A DNA stretch of 28,224 nucleotides from a virus. The translations under genes and the position numbers were made by a program. The stretch lies in IMG/VR virus record IMGVR_UViG_3300046167_000679, positions 1 to 28,224 of that record; one strand, 5' to 3'. A model generated the notes under the pieces. It worked only from the letters and a program-made list of their open reading frames with translations, was not told where the DNA came from and searched no databases. Within the stretch, counting starts at the first letter, position 1. Each line of letters starts with the position of its first letter. Positions 2,521 to 23,745 of the stretch are shown piece after piece.

Positions 2521-4709
2521 TGTCCCTACGGTCAACGAAGAGCCGCATCCAAGGTAAGATTGCTTCTGGTGCATTTAATCAGCCTAACAATACACTGGCA
2601 GACGCTATCGATACCGGTGCTGGTATTATGGCTAAAGGGATCATGCGTCAGGCGGAAGAGAAGCGTCTTGAGGAGCGTGAGGCTAAAAAAGAAAAGGCTG
2701 CAGAAGCCAGACGCCTCGCCGCAGCGCAAGCTAAAAAAGAGGCAGAGGCACGGAAGAACCAGCGCATTGCTAATTCTATTGCCCTCCGCTTTGGTATCGA
2801 CCCCAAAAATGCACAAGGCATGGCATATGTTACTAATGAGGTAGAGATCCATGGCACTGATGCCATCGGCGTAATTCAGAAAGACTTTGATGACCGAAAA
2901 GTCAATCTATCAGAAGTAGAGGTTACTGAAGACTTCGTGACAGGTGCTAGCCCCAATCAAGCACCCCCTATGCGTCTGCCTCCAAATCCTGATGGCAGCA
3001 TGCGTACTACCTTAGATATTGGTGAGGCGATTGATGATCTAGAAGCAACTGGTAGCCCCGCCGCTTCTGCCGCACGGTCTGCAGCCGAAAGCCGTTTCAG
3101 CCCACAACAGCTAAACAAGGGCGAAGTACAGACAGAGACCACAACTTCACAAGGGTTTGCGTTTGATCCTAACGCTAAAAAGAGCGAAATTGATTGGATG
3201 TCTGTATCTCAAACGGACGTTGGTAACCTGCGCCGGTTGCATGATGCAGGCCAACAGGTTCTGGAAGACCAAGATCTTAAAGTACTTGAATTATATGAAA
3301 CTGATTTTGCTGCGGCAGAGGCATTGCAAACAACCACAGCAAACAGAGAATTTAATCAGACAATCATAAAAGAAGACATAGAGGGTCTTCAAGCAATAAT
3401 AGCATCCCCAGATACTGTGTACAGTAAAGAACAAAAAGCTATAGCTCAGACACAACTGGATAATAAGTTAGGCATTGCTCAGACACAAGAAGATGAGCAA
3501 TCCGCTGCAGATGCTCTTGAGTTCCGTAGAAGCCTTGTGGGTAAGGATGCAAATTATCTTAGGGGTATAGGGGCATCTGGAGACTACACTCCACAAGAAA
3601 AGGCAGCGGCTGCGGGACAATTAGCAGCCCTTCCGGGTGAGCCGTTTAATATTACAGATTATGACGATGTTAAGGATGCCACATTAAAGACCATTATTGA
3701 TGACCCAGCCACTGACCCTAAAAAGGTTACTGCCCTGCAGGCTTTGCTGGTTAACCGAAATAACACCGCACCGAAGGTGGATACAAAGAGCCAAGATTAT
3801 CTCATTACATACTTAGATGAATCAGGCCAGAAGCAATCTACTGTAGCTAAGATGGCTGCGGATGGCAGTGGTTTTGTGGATCTAACCTCCCTGAAGCCTG
3901 TTGTTCCCGCCGAAGGTACACAGCCCGTTAACATGGAGCTACAGAGTGATCTGTACGACAACATTGTTAAGATCAACACTTCACTGATTAAACCACTTAA
4001 AGAGCAACGTGTTGCTATGGTTACTACGCTAGCATCAGCTAAGAAGCTTGATGACATAGCCAAACGCAGCCCCGAAATTCTTACCCTTGTAGGCGGTAAA
4101 GTACCTGCGGTTCTAAAGCGTGTAGGTCTTGAAACAAAGGCTTTGGTTGATTTGTTTAACAGCAACGGGTCTATTGAGGGTACTCTGTCCACATTTGATC
4201 AGCGTTTTAATCAATACATCAACGATAGCTCATTGGCGGGTACAGCTAGGGATGCAGCCTTATTCCAAGCAGAAAAAATCAAGATGGCCTTTATGTTTGC
4301 GGCTTCGTCCCTTGGGCAGTCGGGACAAGGTCTATCCGATAAAGATTTCCAAAGAGCCTTGGATATTCTCGACCAAGGTAGCGACTATAAGACCTTTAGC
4401 ATGAATATGCGGTCACAAATGCAGTCTGTTATCCTAATGACGGAAACACAAATCACAGACTTTAATGAGGATGGTTCAGCCATTGCCCTTAATAGTCTAG
4501 ACACTTCAGGCGAGCTTTTAGCCGGTTACCAACAGAATGCTGAGACCTACGCCACCAATCGTGGATTAGGTGATGCATTTGCATGGGCTAAATCAGAGGT
4601 ATCTGAAACCAACACCCTTCCAGTTATCAATTCAAAAGAAGAGCGTGATGCATTGCCATCAGGCACTAAATACGTTGACCCAGACGGCAATGTACGCACA
4701 AAAAAATAA
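2520..4709 (+). CDS. Large coiled-coil virion protein, probable internal/ejection protein (729 aa)
   Basis: It starts on the TAATG overlap with the gene before. Residues about 40-80 are a charged coiled coil (RQAEEKRLEEREAKKEKAAE). The middle is helical, with many short Ala/Gln/Asp-rich repeats, and the C-terminus ends with ALPSGTKYVDPDGNVRTKK, a short module seen at the end of many phage structural proteins. There is no enzyme motif, signal peptide or membrane segment. In T7-like phages the genes in this position, large and helical just before the biggest late gene, encode internal virion or ejection proteins; that role is inferred from size and place. Confidence 0.7.
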   Translation: MSLRSTKSRIQGKIASGAFNQPNNTLADAIDTGAGIMAKGIMRQAEEKRLEEREAKKEKAAEARRLAAAQAKKEAEARKNQRIANSIALRFGIDPKNAQGMAYVTNEVEIHGTDAIGVIQKDFDDRKVNLSEVEVTEDFVTGASPNQAPPMRLPPNPDGSMRTTLDIGEAIDDLEATGSPAASAARSAAESRFSPQQLNKGEVQTETTTSQGFAFDPNAKKSEIDWMSVSQTDVGNLRRLHDAGQQVLEDQDLKVLELYETDFAAAEALQTTTANREFNQTIIKEDIEGLQAIIASPDTVYSKEQKAIAQTQLDNKLGIAQTQEDEQSAADALEFRRSLVGKDANYLRGIGASGDYTPQEKAAAAGQLAALPGEPFNITDYDDVKDATLKTIIDDPATDPKKVTALQALLVNRNNTAPKVDTKSQDYLITYLDESGQKQSTVAKMAADGSGFVDLTSLKPVVPAEGTQPVNMELQSDLYDNIVKINTSLIKPLKEQRVAMVTTLASAKKLDDIAKRSPEILTLVGGKVPAVLKRVGLETKALVDLFNSNGSIEGTLSTFDQRFNQYINDSSLAGTARDAALFQAEKIKMAFMFAASSLGQSGQGLSDKDFQRALDILDQGSDYKTFSMNMRSQMQSVILMTETQITDFNEDGSAIALNSLDTSGELLAGYQQNAETYATNRGLGDAFAWAKSEVSETNTLPVINSKEERDALPSGTKYVDPDGNVRTKK

Positions 4710-8874: not shown

Positions 8875-9590
8875 TATGCAGCCTCCTCTTTTATGAAGGC
8901 TTTAATCCATGTTGCACACACATCTGAGCGCACAATATCGTCCACAGTCATTTCTATGACAGGGAAGGGTAGCATCTGGTGTTTGATCATCCTGATGATG
9001 CGACCAAGCCCGGACTTCTCTGCAAGATCCGTCTGCGCAACGTCACCGTTTACCACTACGTTAGTGTTCTCACCTATGCGGGTCAGAAACATTTTTAGCT
9101 CAACGTATGTGGTGTTCTGAGCTTCATCTAGGATGATAAACGCATCATCGAATGATTTACCTCGCATAACAGAAAACGGTTCTACTACGATGTTACCATC
9201 TGACAGCATGCTCTGCACCTTGGTAACACCTAGATGCTTTTTCAGTACATCAATTAGTGGGGCTACCCATGGGGCCATCTTCTCTTCTAGACCGCCCTTA
9301 AAGAAGCCTATGTCACGGCCCCCTGCAGCTACGTTAGGGCGTGTGATGACGATCTTTGCTACACTACCTTCGTAATACATCTTAGCGGCCTGTGTCGCCG
9401 CCATATAGGTCTTCCCGGTCCCTGCGCATCCTGTGACGAATACTAGCGGATCGTTATTAAGTGCCTTTGCGTACAATTGTTGGTTGTAAGTCTTGGGGAC
9501 CAGTTCAATAGACTTAACGTGTTTAGGCGTAGGTGCTTCCCCTTCTGTTATTTTACGTTTTCTTGTGTAACGCCGTGCATTTTTGCTCAT
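8874..9590 (-). CDS. phoH: PhoH-like ATPase
   Basis: A P-loop ATPase of the PhoH family, common in marine phages and believed to act in RNA handling or phosphate-stress metabolism; its true phage role is not settled. Residues near 60 carry Walker A (VTGCAGTGKTYMA) and near 150 Walker B (DDAFIILDEAQNT), with the family segment ITRPNVAAGGRDIGFFKGG between them. At about 238 aa it is the short, single-domain form. I prefer the ATG at 9590 (MSKNARRYTRK) over the GTG at 9596. The basic N-terminal tail may bind nucleic acid. It lies between a nuclease gene and the last membrane peptide of the operon. Confidence 0.93.
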   Translation of the reverse strand: MSKNARRYTRKRKITEGEAPTPKHVKSIELVPKTYNQQLYAKALNNDPLVFVTGCAGTGKTYMAATQAAKMYYEGSVAKIVITRPNVAAGGRDIGFFKGGLEEKMAPWVAPLIDVLKKHLGVTKVQSMLSDGNIVVEPFSVMRGKSFDDAFIILDEAQNTTYVELKMFLTRIGENTNVVVNGDVAQTDLAEKSGLGRIIRMIKHQMLPFPVIEMTVDDIVRSDVCATWIKAFIKEEAA

Positions 9591-10404: not shown

Positions 10405-12354
10405 CTACGCAGTGAGATCCACGATTTCACAGCTATCGCCAGAGCATGCGAGTGTCTGACTTCCAGAGGTATTGTCTTCTGCCTCATAAGAAGAAAGCTT
10501 CGTCCAATCGATGGCCTTTGGCATAAACGAAAGCATCTGTTCGTACTCAGACTTACCGACATGCTGGTAGGGTGCTTGTTGGTAGGTGTGATCATCAAAC
10601 GGCAGGAACGATACACCAGACATTTCATCGAAATGCTCGTAAACAAATGCGCCTACGTCTAACCATTCAGAACTTTCTACGTTTACAGTCACGCTAGGTT
10701 TGTGTTCGCACCAGTGACGCTGATACATCAGCCACATGTTAAGCTGATCGATGGCTGACATGTCTGCGGTAACTACCGCATTGTCAGGTGCCTTCATTGG
10801 GAAGCTGAAGACGGTGGTTTGATCCGGCTTAAAGGCTTCTGGTTCGTTAGGTACGCCTTGGTCCTTCATAAACTGTGTCAGAGGATCTTTGTTATCACCA
10901 CGAACAGTACGAATGTAGTAAGGGCTATGTCGTGCGTGTATTCCAGAGGCGCTGTCTGTAAGCTGTGAAACTGTACCCGATGGCTTAACGCAAGTTATAG
11001 CAGCCGAAACTTCGATGCCCAGCTTATCAGCCCATTCTTTATTGGTATCAACAGCCACCTGTTTCAGGTCTTCTAGAAGAGCAGCTAGATCGCCCTCTTT
11101 GCCATTGGTTAGGGTGTTGTCCATGATGCCGGTCAGCGACACCCCCAACAGCCGTTCTTCTGCCGTGTTCTTCGCCCACACTTTTCGCAAATAAGGGAAC
11201 TTGGTGTAGGTAGATTGTACCGTTCCCAAAATGGTTGCGATACGGACTTTCCGAACAAGATCTTCTTTAGAGTCTGAAGCACGGATAACTACCTCACTTA
11301 AATTACAAAACTGACCGCCTGTACCTGCAATTGGATTGCCGCTCTTATCGGTCTTTGGTCCCCGCAAGATGATTTCGCTGCACGGGTTAGTTCCCCATTC
11401 AAAGTTAGGGTCACGGCGTCCGTTCTTATTGGCTTGCTTAACAGCGGCTTCCCGATTGAAGATACCACGCTCACCAGAACCGCTTTCTGCCAATGCAGTC
11501 CATTCACGCAGGAAGGACATAGCGTCTGGCTTTTCGGTGTATGCGACAGAGTTATTTGCTAGGCCCATGTGCGGGGCTGTTTCCCACCACTTACCGGACT
11601 TAGCGTGACGCATACGATCATCTGACAGGTTGGATAGAGAGATCATCGCTGAACGCCTCACCCCACCTACCACGACCACTTCACCGATCTTGCACATGAT
11701 GCTGTGACATTCATAGGAAGACAACTTACTGCCTGCAGCCTTTTTGAAGGTATCAATCGTGAAATTAAACAGATCAACCAAAGGCGCTGGGCCAGATGCA
11801 CGACCACCAAAGGTTTTAAGTCTAGCACCGGCTGGGCGAACCTTGCTGACATCCCATGTAGGGATTTCACCGGCGTAGAGCATACTAATCAGAAGGCGAT
11901 ACGCTTTGGCCCAACCCTCTTTGCTGTCTTTCACTACAATGGTTGTATCGCTGTCATAAAGGGTCTCAGGAACCTCTGGCAGGCTCTTGATGTACTGGCG
12001 CTCACAAGAGAACCCTACGCCCGTACCGCACAACAGGATGAACATAGCTTCATCGAAGGCTTTGGGGTCATCGATGACTAGGTATGAACAGTTGTACATA
12101 CATGTATTGTCACGGGCGGCTGCAACACCTGCGGTCATCATGGATCGCATAGAAGGCATAACCTCAAGGCCTGTGATGGCCTCATAGATCTCCTTCTGTA
12201 CTGCGGTGTCCTTAATCACAGGAGCTATAATATTAGAAACATAGCGGTCTCCGGTTTCGCCCCAAGTCTCTCTGCGGCCTGTTTCGTCTAGCCAACGGGC
12301 ATAGCGACTTGTGTGGATGAATGCTTGGTAATCGGTTGGTAGATAGTTATTCAT
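10405..12354 (-). CDS. nrdJ: Class II (adenosylcobalamin-dependent) ribonucleotide reductase
   Basis: Reduces ribonucleotides to deoxyribonucleotides for phage DNA synthesis, with the radical made from coenzyme B12. Seen: the N-terminal SRYARWLDETGRRETW block typical of monomeric class II enzymes; CGTGVGFSCERQ in the barrel; the active-site NPCSEI; GGQFCNLSEVV; and a C-terminal CSGDSC, the CX4C pair that passes electrons to the active site. At 649 aa it is somewhat shorter than the Lactobacillus enzyme. ATG at 12354 has GAGG upstream. No NrdA/NrdB pair is present. Glutaredoxin follows as likely reductant. The host must supply B12. Confidence 0.92.
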   Translation of the reverse strand: MNNYLPTDYQAFIHTSRYARWLDETGRRETWGETGDRYVSNIIAPVIKDTAVQKEIYEAITGLEVMPSMRSMMTAGVAAARDNTCMYNCSYLVIDDPKAFDEAMFILLCGTGVGFSCERQYIKSLPEVPETLYDSDTTIVVKDSKEGWAKAYRLLISMLYAGEIPTWDVSKVRPAGARLKTFGGRASGPAPLVDLFNFTIDTFKKAAGSKLSSYECHSIMCKIGEVVVVGGVRRSAMISLSNLSDDRMRHAKSGKWWETAPHMGLANNSVAYTEKPDAMSFLREWTALAESGSGERGIFNREAAVKQANKNGRRDPNFEWGTNPCSEIILRGPKTDKSGNPIAGTGGQFCNLSEVVIRASDSKEDLVRKVRIATILGTVQSTYTKFPYLRKVWAKNTAEERLLGVSLTGIMDNTLTNGKEGDLAALLEDLKQVAVDTNKEWADKLGIEVSAAITCVKPSGTVSQLTDSASGIHARHSPYYIRTVRGDNKDPLTQFMKDQGVPNEPEAFKPDQTTVFSFPMKAPDNAVVTADMSAIDQLNMWLMYQRHWCEHKPSVTVNVESSEWLDVGAFVYEHFDEMSGVSFLPFDDHTYQQAPYQHVGKSEYEQMLSFMPKAIDWTKLSSYEAEDNTSGSQTLACSGDSCEIVDLTA

Positions 12355-15426: not shown

Positions 15427-15456
15427 AGTATGGCATTACTAAGTGGCACAAGTCAA
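15427..15456 (-). promoter_or_regulatory. Putative sigma70-like promoter for the SSB-nuclease-RNR part of the operon
   Basis: On the minus strand TTGACT and CATACT are 18 bases apart, with the ATG 32 bases downstream. The spacer holds GTGCCACTTAGT, also present in the integrase leader, which may be an operator. Confidence 0.5.
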
Positions 15457-17225
15457 TCATATTCGACTTGATCCAGCCAATTTTTGCCACGAGATGTTTC
15501 TATTTTGAGGGGCAGAATAAAGTCATAATCCCAAAGCTCTTTTGCCTCTTCTGTGACCTTTTCCATGGCCCACTGCAGCACCTCTTTGACCTGTTCTTCT
15601 TCATCAGGATGAGTATCGACCACAATGGAATCATGTACCGTCAGAACAAGCTTGGAGCGCAGGTTTAATTCCTTGAACTTGCGGAAGGCTCGTATGCAGC
15701 TAAGTGGCACAATGTCGGCTGTCGCTGCAGACTGCACAGGGTAGTTAACCTGTTGGGTGTAGTTCTTAGTGCGTCCGTTCTTGCGGCGTTCTTCATTGGG
15801 CCAGAAGAACTGACGCCCGGAGAAGATCTGTATGTGACCGTTCTTCAGTACACCATCTGTTAGCTTCTTGTGATACGTCCCAAGGCCTTTGTAGATCTGG
15901 AAAAAACGGCTGTAATAGTTTTTTATATGCCCTTCATATTGATTCCCAGTGGCCCCATAAATAGGGGCGAACGAATGAGCCTTGGCATTTTGCCTAGCGT
16001 CTTTGCCCACTTCATTAATCTCACACTCATTAATAATGGATGCAGTCTGCTTGTGTAGGTCTTTACCTTCCAAAACATCCTTAATGATCTGCGGATCACC
16101 AGAAAGTTCCCCTGCCATAACAAATTCTAAACCACTGAAATCACTCTCAATAATCAGCCCGTCTTTAAACCGGCTTACCATAGCCTCACGCACAGGAAAG
16201 CCACGCTTTGGCATGTTCTGCAGGTTAGGTGCAGTGGATGACAATCTACCGGTAGCTGTGATGCACTGATTGAACTGTGCATGTAGAATACCGTCTGGCC
16301 GTGTCCATGTTTCGATACCTGCAATGAAGCTGTCTAGGTAGGTGCTGACCGCACTCGCCTCAGTCATTAGCTCAAGGAACTCTACTGCAAGGTCATTGCG
16401 CTTTCTCCGGGCCTGTTCGATCAGAAGCTTGATGGTGTGCTTGTCTGTCTTAAAACCATTAATAGATGCATCGCTAGGGCCGGTAGGGTTAAGCTTGAGG
16501 CCTGCTACCTTGCCATTGGGTACATAGAAAGCTCCTACACCTTTACACTCAGGACACTTGGACAGGTTCTTGTACGGTTCACCCTGCACCTTGTACTTCT
16601 TACCCAGCTTCTGCCGGGTCACAGACTTATACTTCTGGATCAGACCTCTGCCATCGCAGGGGTCACAACATACCACATCAGTTTTGTGCAGAACCTTAGT
16701 GTTTGACCGGTACGCATCGTTAAACTCTTTGCGGTTCATGCGGGGCGGGTACAGAGGCTTACCGGCAGCATTCGTACCGATGTTAAACATCTTAATGTGC
16801 AGGTCTTTGTTTATCAGACCCCGTGAGTAAATGATCTCTGATCGATCTGCACCAGAGGCGAGGTTATAAGGCTTGTCACCCATGACCTGTTCTGTAATTT
16901 CATCCAACCTGTTATTACAAAAGTTATAACGCTCTCTAAAGTGTGCCTCAATTTTGCCCAGCGCCGCCTTATCAATCTTCACACCGTTGCGCTCAATCTC
17001 AACCAAGAACAGAAGCATTTGGTTCATCATGGTGACCACACTCTGCATGCTTTGATTCTCAGGCTTTGCGTAGTCCTCTTGCTGCGCTAGGAAGATGCTC
17101 TCACAGGCTTTTACGTCAGCTTCGGCATACTCAATTACGGTATCAAGGGGCATGGCTTCAAAGCCAACACCGGACTTGAACAGGTCATCAACTAAGTCGG
17201 ATTTCTTCTGTACTATTTCGTTCAT
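15453..17225 (-). CDS. polA: Family A DNA polymerase with DnaJ-type zinc-finger insertion (590 aa)
   Basis: Replicative polymerase. Residues 29-41 carry Exo III (VIEYAEADVKACE); Exo I and II are in the separate gene just upstream. Residues 187-231 hold two CxxCxGxG units (CDPCDGRG, CPECKGVG), the zinc-finger pattern of DnaJ, an insertion reported for HMO-2011-type phages. Motif A is SDFSGLEFVMAGEL (about 361), motif B RQNAKAHSFAPIYG (about 411) with Phe at the position of E. coli Phe762, motif C LTVHDSIVV (about 543). The ATG overlaps the upstream stop (ATGA), with AAGGAG 7 bases before it, so separate translation is possible; a lost base joining both into 714 aa is the alternative. Confidence 0.9.
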   Translation of the reverse strand: MNEIVQKKSDLVDDLFKSGVGFEAMPLDTVIEYAEADVKACESIFLAQQEDYAKPENQSMQSVVTMMNQMLLFLVEIERNGVKIDKAALGKIEAHFRERYNFCNNRLDEITEQVMGDKPYNLASGADRSEIIYSRGLINKDLHIKMFNIGTNAAGKPLYPPRMNRKEFNDAYRSNTKVLHKTDVVCCDPCDGRGLIQKYKSVTRQKLGKKYKVQGEPYKNLSKCPECKGVGAFYVPNGKVAGLKLNPTGPSDASINGFKTDKHTIKLLIEQARRKRNDLAVEFLELMTEASAVSTYLDSFIAGIETWTRPDGILHAQFNQCITATGRLSSTAPNLQNMPKRGFPVREAMVSRFKDGLIIESDFSGLEFVMAGELSGDPQIIKDVLEGKDLHKQTASIINECEINEVGKDARQNAKAHSFAPIYGATGNQYEGHIKNYYSRFFQIYKGLGTYHKKLTDGVLKNGHIQIFSGRQFFWPNEERRKNGRTKNYTQQVNYPVQSAATADIVPLSCIRAFRKFKELNLRSKLVLTVHDSIVVDTHPDEEEQVKEVLQWAMEKVTEEAKELWDYDFILPLKIETSRGKNWLDQVEYD

Positions 17226-17596
17226 GCCGCTCTCCTTTCCGCTGTAGCTTTAAGCGACAATTGCTGACGCTGACCTTTAGCCAGAACGTATTCACCAATC
17301 ATCGTGCAGTAGACTTCTGTTGGGATCTCGAAGCCCATCTCCATCAACCACATCACATCGAACTTAGCGTTGTGTGCAACAATCACATCAGCCTGCTTTA
17401 GAGCCTCACGCAGAGGCGCTGGGCTGTCAGGGTTGGATTTATCGTTGTGGTGGAACACCAGTGTTTGGACAGGCTCACCTAACCAGCAATAGTGCGCAGA
17501 TACGCATCTGTTGTCTGGGTTGAAGGGGGAGTTGTCTATTTTGCCATCAAGTCTTTGTACCGTTGTTTCTAGGTCTAAAACCAATATCTTCTTCAT
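17222..17596 (-). CDS. N-terminal half of the 3'-5' exonuclease domain, split from the polymerase (124 aa)
   Basis: Holds Exo I (ILVLDLETTVQ, with D-x-E) and Exo II (VIVAHNAKFDVMW) of the DnaQ-like proofreading domain, but ends (ATAERRAA) before Exo III, which is at the start of the polymerase gene. Alone it lacks one catalytic Asp, so activity would need both chains to assemble, or one chain from a fused gene. It overlaps the polymerase start by ATGA and its own ATG overlaps the methyltransferase stop by ATGA. Adding one base near 17222 would join the two. Given other indels nearby, natural split and error are both open. Confidence 0.8.
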   Translation of the reverse strand: MKKILVLDLETTVQRLDGKIDNSPFNPDNRCVSAHYCWLGEPVQTLVFHHNDKSNPDSPAPLREALKQADVIVAHNAKFDVMWLMEMGFEIPTEVYCTMIGEYVLAKGQRQQLSLKATAERRAA

Positions 17597-18283: not shown

Positions 18284-18575
18284 CAGAAGACCCCCGCAGT
18301 TTATGCAGAAGGGTCTGCGGATCTCCGTAGTGATACCATTTGTTTTTACCGAAAACCCGCCATTTCTTACCGGACAGTGTAACGTGGTACTTCTGGTCTA
18401 TTGTTAGGTGGTCATGGTACACTCTGATACCGTCACCCCCCAAACGCAGAAACTCCAGAGCAAGCTCTAGCTTCGCTAGGTTTTTACTTGCGGTGTTATT
18501 GTAGCTAGTATCTGTCGCAGCCTTTTGCCGTGCGTTTGCTATTTCGGCCAGCAATGTTTCTTCATTATTCAGCAT
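18273..18575 (-). CDS. Hypothetical phage protein (100 aa)
   Basis: The ATG at 18575 overlaps the helicase end by 11 bp: MLNNEETLLAEIANARQKA. The N-terminal half is helical; the C-terminal half looks like a beta structure, with HVTLSGKKWRVFGKNKWYHY then GDPQTLLHKL. The basic, aromatic middle could bind nucleic acid. I do not recognise a family. Position after helicase suggests a replication accessory protein. Confidence 0.68.
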   Translation of the reverse strand: MLNNEETLLAEIANARQKAATDTSYNNTASKNLAKLELALEFLRLGGDGIRVYHDHLTIDQKYHVTLSGKKWRVFGKNKWYHYGDPQTLLHKLRGSSDAE

Positions 18576-19784
18576 AGCGTGATACCTCTGGTTCGATTTT
18601 GCAGTAAATGGCACCGTGAAAACCTGAGAGCTTGTTCTTGGATATGTACAAACAACGCTCAGTGTTCTGTTCATCGTCGCCGCCGCCAGCGGCTTTACCG
18701 ATACCGATGATTACGTCTGCTTCCGCAGCCTTGCCCGTCTTGGAGCCTTCAAGCATTGAGAAGTCGATGCGGGTCTTGCCCTCTGCATCAGCGGATGCCT
18801 GTGACACTGCAATCACTGCACAGTTGTGTCGTTTGGCTACCTCACGCAAGCTTCGGTACAACTCACGGATACGCTCATGCGAAGAGTTATAATTACCAGC
18901 AATGTGAACCTTATCCGCTTGGTCTATGATTAGGATGTCAGGCTTAATACGCTCACAGTAGGCGTTGATCTTATCAAGATCCCAATCTTGCGTGTCTTTA
19001 AAGATCAGCTTGTCCCTAATGCTCATGTAAACAGAATTTGCTAGGTCTGGCTTCTCTGCGATTTGCTCACGGGTCATGTTAGAACAAGCCTGCACAGCAC
19101 GAAGCTTGGTACGCATGCTCTTTTCTTCATTGCCCAGATACAGAACCTTGGCCCCTTGGCTACAGAACCCGCCGGGTGCAGCGCAGATGCTCACCATGAA
19201 CGCTGACTTACCAGTTTCGGGTCGAGCTGCTACAATAGCAAAGTCGCCGCCGCCGAGGCCGTACAGATGACGGGACAGGGTAGAGATATTGAATGCGAAC
19301 TTATTATCATCAGAAACTTCTGCCAGAAGCTCGTAAATATCATCAGTGATGTCTTCACCGAAATCATCTGGCATGTAGCTGTCTGAGATGCGCTCTAGGA
19401 GCGTCTGTAAGCGGCGTAGGGCGCTGGGATCACCCTCAGACATGTTGATGCCTAAGTTGGCTACCTCACGCCCTATGTCCTTTGCGCCAAAGGTTGTTGA
19501 TTACATCAGATGCAATGTCAGAGCTTATAGCTTCTGCATGCTTGATCTGGTCTACAACATCACGGACTTCGTGGATCTCAGCGGATGTAGCCACAGGGTT
19601 TTGTGACAGCCATAAGCTGTACACTTCATCCGGGCTAATATCATGTTCGTATTTGCCATGTGCTTCTTTGACCAAATCATAGATCGCTGCGAAATCGTCA
19701 CTGAATAAACTACGCCGCAAGTTAGCCTGATTCTCTAAGGTAAGTGGCGTTGTTCAGTATTGTTTTTATTAGTTGTTGCTCCAT
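18565..19784 (-). CDS. dnaB: DnaB-type replicative helicase (two frameshifts)
   Basis: Starts MEQQLIKTILNNATY at 19784. Extra bases at 19739-19740 and 19479-19480 split it; restored length is 405 aa. The N-terminal domain is short. The RecA-like motor has Walker A ARPETGKSAFM, the H1a-like LYLGNEEKSMRTK, and Walker B PDILIIDQADKV, then a conserved AVIAVSQASAD (H3). It unwinds DNA at the fork together with the separate primase, instead of the fused T7 gp4. Shorter than bacterial DnaB (about 470 aa). The uninterrupted main part is 18565-19443 and lacks the N-terminal domain. Confidence 0.87.
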
Positions 19785-19842
19785 AGGTCTGCCGTCCTCA
19801 GTGGTTTTAATTGTGCCACCTAGAATAACACCTAGCAGAAAT

Positions 19843-19879
19843 AAAAAAACCCCCAATCTTTCGACTGAGGGCTTTTTCT
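19843..19879. terminator. Bidirectional rho-independent terminator
   Basis: CCCCCAATC and GACTGAGGG pair perfectly allowing two G-U pairs around a TTTC loop. On the minus strand seven T's follow, and on the plus strand TTTTTCTT. On the minus strand it separates the primase-end genes from the helicase operon, so the helicase needs read-through or its own promoter. Confidence 0.85.
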
Positions 19880-19900
19880 TAATTTGTTATGTGTTGTCAG

Positions 19901-20131
19901 TTAGTTCTGACGGAACTTCATCTTGCTGATGTCAGGGCTTTGGTCGCCCCGGCGTTCCTTCATATCTACCTGATGGAAGACTACACGCTTGTTGCCTTTA
20001 ACAATCGCAGCGACTGCTTCTTCCAAACGTGCTTGTTCCTCTGCGGCTTCTCTAAAACCGCCGTCGATGTCATAATCGATGACTACGATTCCTCGTGCTT
20101 TTATGGTCCCATTCCTTCTTTTGAGGACGAT
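19901..20131 (-). CDS. Hypothetical phage protein with uncertain 5' end
   Basis: The clear part reads NGTIKARGIVVIDYDIDGG and ends DISKMKFRQN. It looks like one strand-rich segment then a helix (FREAAEEQARLEEAVAA) and a basic tail. No standard start codon occurs after the upstream stop at 20132; one missing A in an A-run near 20115-20120 would extend it upstream (TDVKQTGDKSSSK). It lies just before a strong terminator. Family unknown. Confidence 0.55.
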   Translation of the reverse strand: MVLKRRNGTIKARGIVVIDYDIDGGFREAAEEQARLEEAVAAIVKGNKRVVFHQVDMKERRGDQSPDISKMKFRQN

Positions 20132-20209
20132 TTATCGCCCGTTTGTTTAACGTCGGTATCTCGACGGATATATAATGTTACGCAGCAATGTGGTCGCCGC
20201 AGATATATT

Positions 20210-20416
20210 TTATATATCGTAAGACGGGGGAGCAGAAGGGGGGTTTGTAGTTTTTGCTGATAAAGCTTCGCCGTTAGGCACACCAAATCTATCACACAGC
20301 GCATTGCTAGAGACCAAGTATCTAGCGGCACGGGATCTAACAGACGCAATCAAGTATGACCAAGTGTATTGGCCCCTTAGTGTATCACATCTTGTATCTG
20401 TCCAGCCGAAAGACAT
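20210..20416 (-). CDS. Small hypothetical phage protein (68 aa)
   Basis: Starts at ATG 20416 with GAGGATCTAAA upstream, overlapping the primase end by 40 bp: MSFGWTDTRCDTLRGQYTW, then a helix SYLIASVRSRAARYLVSSN and a Pro-rich tail. The good ribosome site and position support it. No known family. It may act with primase, given coupled expression. Confidence 0.6.
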   Translation of the reverse strand: MSFGWTDTRCDTLRGQYTWSYLIASVRSRAARYLVSSNALCDRFGVPNGEALSAKTTNPPSAPPSYDI

Positions 20417-21148
20417 TTTAGATCCTCTGTTGTTAGGCGTAAGTTTGTAATCTCGCCGTGCTTCTTAGATAAGTACACTGCTTTACTACTCGCATCATTG
20501 TCAAGTACTAATGTTACTTTTATGTACTTAACTAATTGCTGTTTTATTTCGGTAGTTAAGTTCGTACCTAGCAGGGCGAAGCCTACAACACCCTCAAGCC
20601 TACTAACAGCGCATGCAGAAGCAATATCTTCAACTAAAACAGCGTGTTGTCCTGAACCTACAGTTATGCCTTGTGTGGTATCACCATACTTCCACCACTT
20701 GGGTAGACGCCCGTCTAAGGCTCTCCCAACAGCACCTGTGCCATCATTTGTATAAAACAGAACCCGGTTTTCTGTTGGTAGGTATCTAATCTTTATACTA
20801 CCTGATTCGTATGCTTCCATAGAATTTACATCTTCTAAGTATTTAACAGCGGGTGCATGCTTGCGCACAGATACGGTCATAGTGGGTAACTGGTTAAGCT
20901 TCTTAACTGACCGCCGGGTAGGTGTGCCGCCGACATAGTTCTTGAGTGCGGTTATATCACGCTTACCTCTGCAGACTACCTTTGGCATTGCAAGAGGCTC
21001 TAAAACAGTTCCACACCAGAACACCATCGAACCTGTCTAAGGTGAACTTGTTCCTGCCCCCACAAAAGGGACAGGTAAGTGTTTTATGTTCACCATCGGC
21101 CAGCTTGATCTTCTGCACCACGCTGACCTGTTCTTTGTAACTAAACAT
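20377..21148 (-). CDS. DnaG/TOPRIM-type primase (frameshifted)
   Basis: The N-terminus (MFSYKEQVSVVQKIKL) leads to a zinc ribbon, CPFCGG ... CFRASC. One extra base in 20967-20985 breaks the frame after NAKG; removing it gives 256 aa, continuing RGKRDITALKN. The TOPRIM part has AVLVEDIASACA (catalytic Glu) and TLVLDNDASSKA (D-x-D). It makes RNA primers for replication and is separate from the helicase. Short compared with bacterial DnaG, as in HMO-2011-like phages. Starts inside the zinc-ribbon gene end. Confidence 0.83.
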
Positions 21149-21395
21149 TGTGCTTGATCCTGAAGATCTCTCCGCAGTCTTCGCAGTGATGATGAAACAG
21201 GTAGGAACCCATCTCTTCGCTTTCATCATCTAATTCTTTTAGACCTGTCAGGAACTGGTGGGTCTGTCAGGTACACTACCAGAAGTGTTGGGTCTCCAAC
21301 CTGTATTAAACTGACAGCATGTCTCACAGGCATACGGCCTAGTTGATGCGTACTCTTCTACGCCTTCTAGTGATCTTACTCTTTACTTTGCTCAT
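21141..21395 (-). CDS. Small zinc-ribbon protein (two frameshifts)
   Basis: The first gene of the long minus operon starts MSKVKSKITRR at 21395 after a site with GAGGATAACCC. One extra base near 21358-21365 and one missing base near 21251-21260 break it. The restored frame reads EEYASTRPYACETCCQFNTG, then ends LFHHHCEDCGEIFRIKHNV, so two CxxC-like pairs can hold zinc. Total 84 aa. Such proteins often act as phage transcription factors or DNA-binding adaptors; being first in the operon fits a regulator. Overlaps the primase start by 8 bases. Confidence 0.55.
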
Positions 21396-21403
21396 AGGGT
21401 TAT

Positions 21404-21556
21404 CCTCATTAACCTATAGGTTGGACTAACCCTTGGGCGGGTTAGCCGCAGGCTACACCTAATTGTGAACAAGTCAACCACTTTGTTATGCCAGTTAGTT
21501 ATGGGGTTAGTAACTTACCACCCCACACAACCTATTGTTTTACATAGGTTCTAGCT
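21404..21556. promoter_or_regulatory. Integrase-arm-like control region beside the attachment site
   Basis: No gene is seen. It holds inverted TAGGTT/AACCTA half-sites: a perfect palindrome at 21411-21422, a pair at 21529-21534 and 21545-21550 with a 10-base gap, and a CTAACCC/GGGTTAG hairpin near 21425-21445. This is the kind of sequence where integrase and accessory factors bind. Confidence 0.55.
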
Positions 21557-21598
21557 ATAACCTGAAGGTCGTAGGTTCAAATCCTACTCCCGCAACCA
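21557..21598 (+). other. Attachment site: 3' half of a tRNA (initiator tRNA-Met-like)
   Basis: From ATAACCTGAAGG to CCCGCAACCA the sequence reads as anticodon loop, anticodon-stem 3' side, variable loop, T-arm (GTAGG-TTCAAAT-CCTAC) and acceptor end with CCA. No matching 5' half lies upstream. From memory it fits alphaproteobacterial initiator tRNA-Met, including A at position 72. Phages that insert in tRNA genes carry just this 3' part so that the host tRNA is rebuilt. The integrase lies 1 kb away. The core also has AACCT and AGGTT 9 bases apart. Confidence 0.75.
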
Positions 21599-21646
21599 AA
21601 GTACTGAACTCATTAGGCGAATCCTGATGATTCTATTCTATTCCAC

Positions 21647-21681
21647 ATCATTCTATTTATTTCAATGTAGAATGATCTTTT
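21647..21681 (+). terminator. Perfect hairpin next to the thyX end
   Basis: ATCATTCTA and TAGAATGAT form a 9-bp perfect stem with a 12-base loop, followed on the plus strand by CTTTTATG. It lies right after the thyX stop on the other strand, so could end either strand's transcripts. Confidence 0.5.
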
Positions 21682-22333
21682 ATGCGGAATCATCTTCCGT
21701 CAGTGCATCCCAACTAACAGGAAATAGCTCAATCATCTTACGATCAATCTGGTTGGCTACCTGCCGTGTCTCTTCTTGCGTATCAGGCTTGCAACGTAGG
21801 TTGCACATGGCGGAGAAGGCATCCAAGCTACCCGACCAGTACCATTCGGTCATTGTGTTTTGCGGTAGCACCATCCGGGCTTGCTCTTCGCACACTCCTT
21901 TGTCCAAGCAGACCCTCATACAACGTCAGAGGAATCTGCTGCGATGTTTGGATATGAATGTGCTGTATCTCACCCGTCAGAGCCTTGCTTCTTATCCTGC
22001 GACTGACCACGCCATATATCAGGGCACATAAAACTCGATATTTTCGGTTGTATATCGCCTAGATATTTCGTTCCAACGTAAGAATTTATGCTTCACTAAC
22101 TGCCGTGCCACAAAGATGGGAGCCTTGATATGGAAACTGGCGAAGCAATGTCCGAATGGGCTGATGTGTTTATGGGCTGCAAGGTAACGGATCAGCTTAT
22201 CATCCTTTGCTTTAAGTTTAGGTGGACCCCACGGATTGTCTTCCATGACACTTGTCTTACCAAACGATACCCGTGCTGCGTTAGCCACTGTTAGGTCTGT
22301 ACCCATATGATCAATGTATGTTGCTTTAATCAT
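21680..22333 (-). CDS. thyX: Flavin-dependent thymidylate synthase ThyX (three frameshifts)
   Basis: Makes dTMP from dUMP using FAD and methylene-tetrahydrofolate. The N-terminus MIKATYIDHMG starts at 22333. Extra bases in short runs at 22022-22024, 21973-21975 and 21899-21901 break it; the restored frame is 216 aa. The ThyX signature region reads ARQLVKHKFLRWNEISRRYT, with Lys-His-Lys for the usual Arg-His-Arg, then the phage-type C-terminal part (TMTEWYWSGSLDAFSAMCN). Uninterrupted parts are 22019-22333 and 21680-21919; neither would be active alone. Fits the RNR and MazG functions. Confidence 0.85.
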
Positions 22334-22369
22334 TCTTAATCCTTAGTAATTTTGCACTGATGGCAGGTA

Positions 22370-22528
22370 TCAGAAGGGTGGTTCACCGGAGTGATCCAAA
22401 TCTGGCATGTTGTATTCAAATGCACGGGGTATGGTGGGTTCGTCAGGAACATCATCGGGCAAAGGGGTAGGCATCACACCTACTTGCTCCATCTCCCACA
22501 GAATGTGGCGGGGTATCTCATTTTCCAT
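22370..22528 (-). CDS. Small hypothetical protein (52 aa)
   Basis: Reads MENEIPRHILWEMEQVGVM at the start and MPDLDHSGEPPF at the end, after a TGAGGAAAACC ribosome site. It is acidic and Pro-rich (PTPLPDDVPDEPT), likely mostly disordered. It lies between integrase-linked genes and thyX and overlaps the gene before by 11 bp. No family recognised. Confidence 0.62.
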   Translation of the reverse strand: MENEIPRHILWEMEQVGVMPTPLPDDVPDEPTIPRAFEYNMPDLDHSGEPPF

Positions 22529-22664
22529 TGGTTTTCCTCAATTCATCACGGACTGCTACGATAAGATCGATCAGTCTCTCAGTGGCTTGCTGCGCAGGCT
22601 TGCCTGTCAGCCGTTGCAGTTCTCTCTCAAAGGCCTTTCGGGCCTCAGATACGTCTGTGTTCAT
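22518..22664 (-). CDS. Small helical protein (48 aa)
   Basis: The ATG at 22664 follows AAAAGG: MNTDVSEARKAFERELQRL, then a second helix (QQATERLIDLIVAVRDEL). It overlaps the integrase end by 20 bp. Helical hairpin-like composition; could be a small DNA-binding or regulatory partner. Excisionase is possible by place, but it lacks clear winged-helix features. Confidence 0.62.
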   Translation of the reverse strand: MNTDVSEARKAFERELQRLTGKPAQQATERLIDLIVAVRDELRKTNGK

Positions 22665-23745
22665 GTGAAAACCTTTTATTTTGGGCAGAAGACGCCATTT
22701 TCTTCGTCTTTTTGACGTAAATATTGAGCATTTGTCGGGATTTGTGTCCTGTAACCGCCGAAATTTCATCTTCAGTTGCACCGCTTTCACCTAGTACGGT
22801 AGCGCCAGAGTGCCGAAGGAATTTAATCTTCAGTTTATCAGGCAGCATGCAGTGTTTGCGGATCTTCTGGGCAATTTCATTGTACTTCCACCTGTCATAC
22901 GGTTTGCCTGTCTTCTCGTAATTCACGATAGTTTCATTAGAACCAGCTTGGTTGTGACGGGGTACAATGCGGGAAATAATACGAGGGCTTGCATCTACAA
23001 TAATAGAAGCTTTGGTCTTTTCTTGTATGAAAGTGAAGGTCTCACCATCAAAGTTGTCCCACCGTAGCTGACGCATGTCTCCGGGGCGCTGACAGAGGTC
23101 GTAGCAGAGCAAAGCCAGTGTACCGATAGACCAGTAGCCTAGCTCGTCAGAGGCCTCTACAAAGCGTGTTACCTGCCGTTCTGTCCATACAACGTCACAG
23201 ATCGGGTCAGTGTCCAGTTGGATGATCTTAAACGGGTTGCCACGCAGCTTATCGTTAGCTTCACACACATTCCAAACACGCTTTAGGAACTTAATGGTGT
23301 GCCTCGCCCGGTGTGGCGATACTTCGTCCATCAAATAGGCGTACAGCTTCTGTACATGGTCTTTACGCACGTTTTGGGCCAACATATCGATGAATAGAGT
23401 GCTTCCAGACCCCTAATTTGATCACAGAAAGCCCTTTTATTAGCTGATTGTAGGTGCGTTTACTGTTGTCAGCTAAACGTGACCAAGCCTGCGTCTGCTT
23501 ATAGTAGCCCAGCATACCTAGTACGGTGTTGCTGTTCACATAAACAATGTCATCTTTGTCGGCTAAGTACCGCTGATGCAGAGAATCTATCTCCATGCAC
23601 CTATGAACGGCATCAATCCGGGCATCAAACTGTTCAAAGCCCTACCTGCAGGACGTTCTTTAATGTATTGCGGCGGGTTAAACGCCCACTTTTCACTGCC
23701 ATCACGCAGTTTAATCTGTTTTAGAAACTTAATCTTGTTAGCCAT
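22645..23745 (-). CDS. int: Tyrosine integrase (two frameshifts)
   Basis: Site-specific recombinase acting at the nearby tRNA-type site. The ATG at 23745 (MANKIKFLKQI) has AGGAGG 9 bases upstream. A missing base at 23641-23645 and an extra base at 23410-23413 split it; restored length is 366 aa. The core-binding domain covers residues about 75-170. The catalytic domain shows CQRPGDMRQLRW (Arg I), KFLRHSGAT (second Arg), TGHKSRQMLNIYV (His and the nucleophile Tyr). The first position of the usual HxxR is Lys here. Uninterrupted catalytic part: 22645-23385. Confidence 0.87.

Follow-up and report, generated by a model that had tools for sequence, protein, structure and literature searches.

A 3' half of the initiator tRNA-Met gene as the probable attachment site of an HMO-2011-type podovirus

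The stretch of DNA analysed here as a whole (the window) spans the 28,224 bases of a linear virus record. It contains a 42-base sequence, ATAACCTGAAGGTCGTAGGTTCAAATCCTACTCCCGCAACCA, that is identical to the 3' part of alphaproteobacterial initiator tRNA-Met genes. These 42 bases are very probably the attP core of an unintegrated temperate HMO-2011-type podovirus of the CRP-3/CRP-235 branch with a marine alphaproteobacterial host, in which the integrase would join the core to the 3' half of the host initiator gene and the tRNA would be rebuilt. The principle has already been demonstrated for Roseobacter phage CRP-3. New here are another member of the group and a modest refinement of where the tRNA gene is cut. 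The features of the window are listed in Table 1.

Table 1. Positions of the tRNA half, its putative flanking motifs and the neighbouring genes in the window.
Feature	Position	Strand	Evidence or remark
3' part of initiator tRNA-Met (A35 to CCA76), without 5' half; very probable attP core	21557..21598	+	Exact match to initiator genes; ARAGORN
C39-A76, 38 bp; probable minimal shared core	21561..21598	+	Left edge invariant across the phage group; 30 distinct relatives
CTGAACTCATT, downstream copy of motif TTGATATCATT, 3 mismatches, 6 bases past CCA	21604..21614	+	Offset +6 fixed in most relatives
TTGTTTTACAT, weak candidate upstream copy of TTGATATCATT, about -29 from G42	21535..21545	+	Placed by eye in the window
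Thymidylate synthase thyX, interrupted in the contig	21692..22333	-	PF02511 2e-21 (N-terminal ORF); tblastn with CRP-235 ThyX
Tyrosine integrase, catalytic domain ORF, 246 aa	22645..23385	-	PF00589 (Phage_integrase) 1e-15; phrog_1 3.7e-28; conserved R, K, R, H, Y columns
Integrase N-terminal part, other frames	23411..23736	-	tblastn with CRP-235 integrase; frame break near 23410
DNA primase, split in two frames	20383..21148	-	tblastn with CRP-235 primase
DnaB-like replicative helicase, split in two frames	18568..19732	-	phrog_19 2.9e-53; CRP-235 homology
DNA polymerase A, HMO-2011 type, two overlapping ORFs	15456..17590	-	PF00476 1.4e-58; CRP-235 homology

In tRNA numbering, the 42 bases run from A35 through the 3' anticodon strand, the variable loop, the T-arm and the 3' acceptor strand to the CCA. 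The host tRNA 3' end is copied exactly to the last base and no 5' half is present, as the original prediction had described. ARAGORN finds no complete tRNA in the 28,224-base window. The ungapped match to the 42-mer is 42/42, compared with a best match of 22-27/42 in 20 shuffles of the window.

The identity of the tRNA had been named beforehand as a point on which the original prediction could fail, and it held. In HTCC2255 (marine Roseobacter group), where 30 of the 34 tRNA loci were compared with the 42-mer, the initiator tRNA matches at 42/42 positions and the next best, tRNA-Ile(GAT), at 31/42. The other two CAT tRNAs of this genome match at 29/42 and 27/42. A different isoacceptor was rejected on the distance between the initiator and its runner-up.

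At least 116 bacterial genome contigs, chiefly from Rhodobacteraceae and sphingomonads, contain the exact 42-mer. Among 117 inspected copies, 95 have a recognisable initiator tRNA 5' half immediately upstream, nearly all reading CGCGGGATGGAGCAG.... The other 22 comprise 10 copies that are masked or cut by a contig end and 12 halves with foreign sequence upstream. Position 7 is A in nearly all initiator genes that bear the 42-mer, and this base pairs with the U66 supplied by the phage. Exact initiator genes of this A7 form occur in Rhodobacteraceae, sphingomonads and marine single-cell alphaproteobacteria. The initiator gene follows the 5S rRNA in Salipiger and Ascidiaceihabitans, and no rRNA was found near that of HTCC2255 within the 8 kb examined. 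In two marine alphaproteobacterial genomes (L228 and L229), the initiator tRNA is found not after the 5S but upstream of the 16S rRNA, at a distance of about 360 bases. Position 1-72 of initiator tRNAs is usually mismatched. The first base of the HTCC2255 initiator tRNA (L331) is T and not C (TGCGGGA...TCCCGCA-ACCA), which gives a U1-A72 pair.

The half was predicted to lie between replication genes and 1 kb from an integrase gene, and both placements are borne out. On one side is thyX, and on the other are the primase, helicase and polymerase genes; 1,047 bases separate the CCA from the end of the integrase ORF. Homologs of CRP-235 genes are present in the same order (integrase, ThyX, primase, gp07, helicase, gp09, polymerase, and gp12-gp19), with further homologs of gp21-gp25, gp59, and gp61. 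The window therefore contains the HMO-2011-type module order int-thyX-primase-helicase-polymerase as well as homologs beyond it. Because CRP-235 homologs occur in the same order over most of its length, the window is assigned to an HMO-2011-type phage of the CRP-3/CRP-235 branch. This 28 kb fragment ends before the capsid, portal and terminase genes of the group.

Compared with CRP-235, the integrase, primase, helicase and thyX genes of the window (18568-23736) contain frame changes or stops that interrupt them. The integrase ORF covers only the C-terminal 246 of approximately 355 residues. Its frame breaks near 23410, where a C-run contains an extra base relative to 8 of 9 alignments. In two other loci (L007 and L122), integrase, primase and helicase each align in a single frame, and this, together with the extra base in the C-run, suggests that the frame breaks are assembly errors. 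With its integrase frame broken in the contig, this copy cannot be claimed to be active. The polymerase region (15453-17596) consists of two ORFs that overlap by 4 bases (17222-17225), with the same break in loci L004 and L085 and one open frame in L122. This break is a natural split or fusion within the close lineage.

The half is found at the equivalent place and in the equivalent orientation in 15 of 15 viral loci that were fetched by integrase similarity alone. Cultured HMO-2011-type roseophages with the half between thyX and primase are CRP-3 (35/35 core bases), CRP-235 (35/35), and CRP-212 (33/35, with a compensated pair in the T-stem). The T-stem occurs in four versions among the relatives (GTAGG/CCTAC, GCAGG/CCTGC, AGAGG/CCTCT, and GTCAG/CTGAC), and pairing is kept in all four. 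The first two of these, each with U66, occur natively in alphaproteobacterial genomes as well. One locus (L016, at 1448 on the minus strand) has a half that ends in GCATCCA, with U73 instead of A73, and a T-stem of GTCAG/CTGAC; this form was not found in the 385 alphaproteobacterial genomes searched. The half is absent from the stretches examined in the subgroup I phages HMO-2011, CRP-1, CRP-2, CRP-207, CRP-345, and CRP-603, and in CRP-738. The attachment site is therefore limited to one branch.

Integration of CRP-3 into the tRNA-Met(CAT) gene of FZCC0040 was shown by sequencing and PCR, and the core overlaps the 3' end of that gene (Zhang et al. 2019, PMC6918029). The target is named there as tRNA-Met(CAT), and the sequence of the half is of the initiator type. 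The published phage-side primers map on CRP-3 to 2829-2849 on the plus strand (attL-R) and 3642-3662 on the minus strand (attR-F). The half of CRP-3, at 3171-3205, is flanked and faced by both primers and so lies within the experimentally verified attP interval. Because this half is initiator sequence, the CRP-3 target is most likely the initiator gene, as judged from the phage side and not from the host gene. CRP-3 (HMO-2011-type subgroup III) resembles the window in its 35/35 half, in the placement between thyX and primase, and in gene order. The two integrases share 44% identity and have the same orientation relative to the half. The window differs in that its integrase and arms have diverged, and integration, which was seen experimentally in CRP-3, is expected for the window lineage by analogy. 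The window phage would integrate as its relative does.

The position of the crossover can be narrowed by comparing the sites of the group. Positions 39-47 are invariant in 30 of 30 distinct relatives (13 window-type and 17 CRP-3-type), where rows derived from pattern searches of genomes and viral contigs, which fixed some bases from position 35 or 42 on, are unbiased only to the left of those positions. Window-type sites keep position 32 in 3 of 13 cases and position 33 likewise in 3 of 13; for CRP-3-type sites the figures are 12 of 17 and 5 of 17. CRP-3-type sites match at position 34 in 10 of 17 and at position 38 in 9 of 17. Positions 32-34 are variable in both groups and positions 35, 36, and 38 in the CRP-3 type, which is invariant only at A37 and from C39 onward. 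The window is unlike an anticodon-loop (class A) site, as its loop reads GCTATAA and that of the host CTCATAA. In unrelated elements at the same gene, C32, T33, and C34 are kept in 12 of 12 genome halves and identity starts at C32. Because identity in the phage group is invariant only from C39, and in unrelated prophages from C32, the crossover probably lies at or 3' of position 39, that is, 3' of the anticodon loop. Nothing can be read from the 3' edge, since the tRNA has to be complete.

A motif, TTGATATCATT, flanks the half among the relatives at offsets of -28 from G42 (well kept in the CRP-3 type) and +6 after the CCA. At most 2 mismatches to the motif are found in 35% of upstream flanks versus 2.5% in shuffles, and at most 3 mismatches in 55% of downstream flanks versus 8%, a comparison that is not a strict test as the flank rows are related to one another. 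The upstream copy in the window is no better than chance. The motif is a candidate integrase or accessory-protein site.

These observations can be combined into a tentative model, to which we give slightly less than an even chance. The phage group would split the initiator gene at or after position 39, so that the host anticodon is always kept and the phage gives only the 3' anticodon strand, the T-arm and the acceptor, and the paired TTGATATCATT motifs at fixed distances would be integrase or accessory sites. The crossover may instead fall within the loop that bears the anticodon, where many elements that target tRNA genes recombine, and loop mismatches would then be tolerated. Anticodon-centred sites are one common class among the 2,083 islands in Islander (PMC4383910), and the loop bases C32-C34 are kept in all 12 elements of other families at the initiator gene. 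A loop crossover is nonetheless rather unlikely for this group, as among the 17 phages of the CRP-3 type only 5 match at loop position 33, 10 at position 34, and 9 at position 38. It would also give CRP-235 a rebuilt tRNA with the wrong anticodon (CAG) if A35-A38 were phage-derived.

An attR border also consists of phage sequence followed by a tRNA 3' half without a 5' half, and such halves occur in genomes, so the half could mark the end of an integrated prophage on a cut contig. This is very improbable. The sequence downstream of the CCA is phage, with a similar stretch in close relatives (CTGAACTCATTAGGCGAATCC in the closest) that is followed by thyX and the integrase gene, and the genes on both flanks, throughout the 28 kb, are phage genes. 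The site is read as attP rather than as a prophage end because of these genes on either side, and the attR reading was rejected on the same ground. Whole tRNA genes have been reported in phages of the same hosts (tRNA-Arg in CRP-7, PMC6918029; tRNA-Thr in CRP-810, PMC11288001), and the half could be what is left of such a gene after decay, without any part in attachment. This too is very improbable, as the half shows no decay (38 bases exact in most of the divergent relatives, paired T-stem changes, a sharp left edge) and CRP-3 integrates at it (PMC6918029; primer mapping).

The unintegrated attP of the original prediction is thus supported by the phage genes on both sides, by the integration of CRP-3 in tRNA-Met(CAT), and by the CRP-3 primers that flank the same half. 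In the proposed mechanism, the tyrosine integrase encoded 1 kb away would act on the attP core and on attB, the identical 3' half within the initiator tRNA-Met gene of the host, and recombine the two. The attL border would be composed of the host 5' half and the phage-supplied 3' half, followed by phage DNA. A full tRNA-Met(CAT) would be rebuilt at attL, and the host would thereby keep translation initiation. The displaced host 3' half would become attR at the far border. A graft of the host 5' half onto the 3' half of the window is read by ARAGORN as a complete tRNA-Met(cat).

The claim that the phage must rebuild an essential tRNA depends on the number of initiator genes in the host. HTCC2255 has one copy, as do several marine single-cell genomes (counts from incomplete genomes), Nereida has two, and Salipiger bermudensis HTCC2601 has five. 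The claim is strictly valid only for one-copy hosts such as HTCC2255.

Other tRNA sites show both likenesses and differences. Anticodon-class sites of tyrosine integrases (Islander, PMC4383910) share with the window an element-borne tRNA 3' fragment and a gene rebuilt on integration, but identity in the window group is invariant from C39 and not from the anticodon loop. Roseophage CRP-810, which integrates in tRNA-Thr (PMC11288001), is likewise a marine roseophage with a tyrosine integrase and a tRNA target, and its junctions were verified by PCR. Unlike the window, it has a 13-bp shared stretch in mid-gene and an attP beside a complete phage tRNA-Thr. For roseophage DSS3phi8 (PMC4961962), a tRNA-Met attachment site near the integrase has been proposed, as in the window; that candidate, near tRNA-Met4, differs in being 63 bp long with 81% identity and 18 bp exact. 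Almost nothing was found in the literature on initiator tRNA or tRNA-fMet as a prophage site.

Several host genomes contain an initiator tRNA or half followed by further same-strand halves; an integrase lies close to the half, and the copies are separated by prophage genes (terminase, portal, tape measure). These belong to phage families other than that of the window. In genome G007, the initiator gene is at 569, halves are at 12082 and 50414, and an integrase is at 48846-50132. In G004, the gene is at 84 and a half at 9521, with an integrase in between. Terminase and portal genes lie between same-strand copies in G002, and a tape-measure gene in G005. Borders at the exact 42-base sequence, whose absence from hosts would have counted against the prediction, are therefore present, for other phage families. 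The initiator gene is an insertion hot spot in which tandem elements each leave a 3' half (G007:C22 569-50455, G005:C16 211873-298198, and G002:C22 11908-75258). In one further case (L156; G003:C12 12582 and 14606), the copies are only 2 kb apart; one is an initiator gene that has a G7-U66 wobble, the other a displaced half. This pair is a very small integrated element. The initiator gene had been called a notable target. Its role as an integration site is supported, but such use is not rare in the alphaproteobacteria.

An integrated copy of the window lineage, expected to show a host initiator 5' half, the core and CTGAACTCATTAGGC in a row, was not found in the genome and viral contig searches. 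Among the 17 viral contigs that have the downstream arm of the window type, every site is attP and none is attL. An integrase alignment search of 395 genomes of one bacterial family gave no integrase close to the window group. Of the best 15 matches in these genomes, none is beside an initiator half; their neighbours are tRNA-Arg, Cys or Leu genes, or there is no tRNA nearby.

In an abundant group of ocean phages, half of the start-codon tRNA of the host is maintained as a precise copy that co-varies. Through this half, phage fragments from metagenomes can be tied to alphaproteobacterial hosts and recognised as capable of lysogeny. In some streamlined hosts the initiator gene is single-copy, and integration there depends on the faithful repair of an essential gene.
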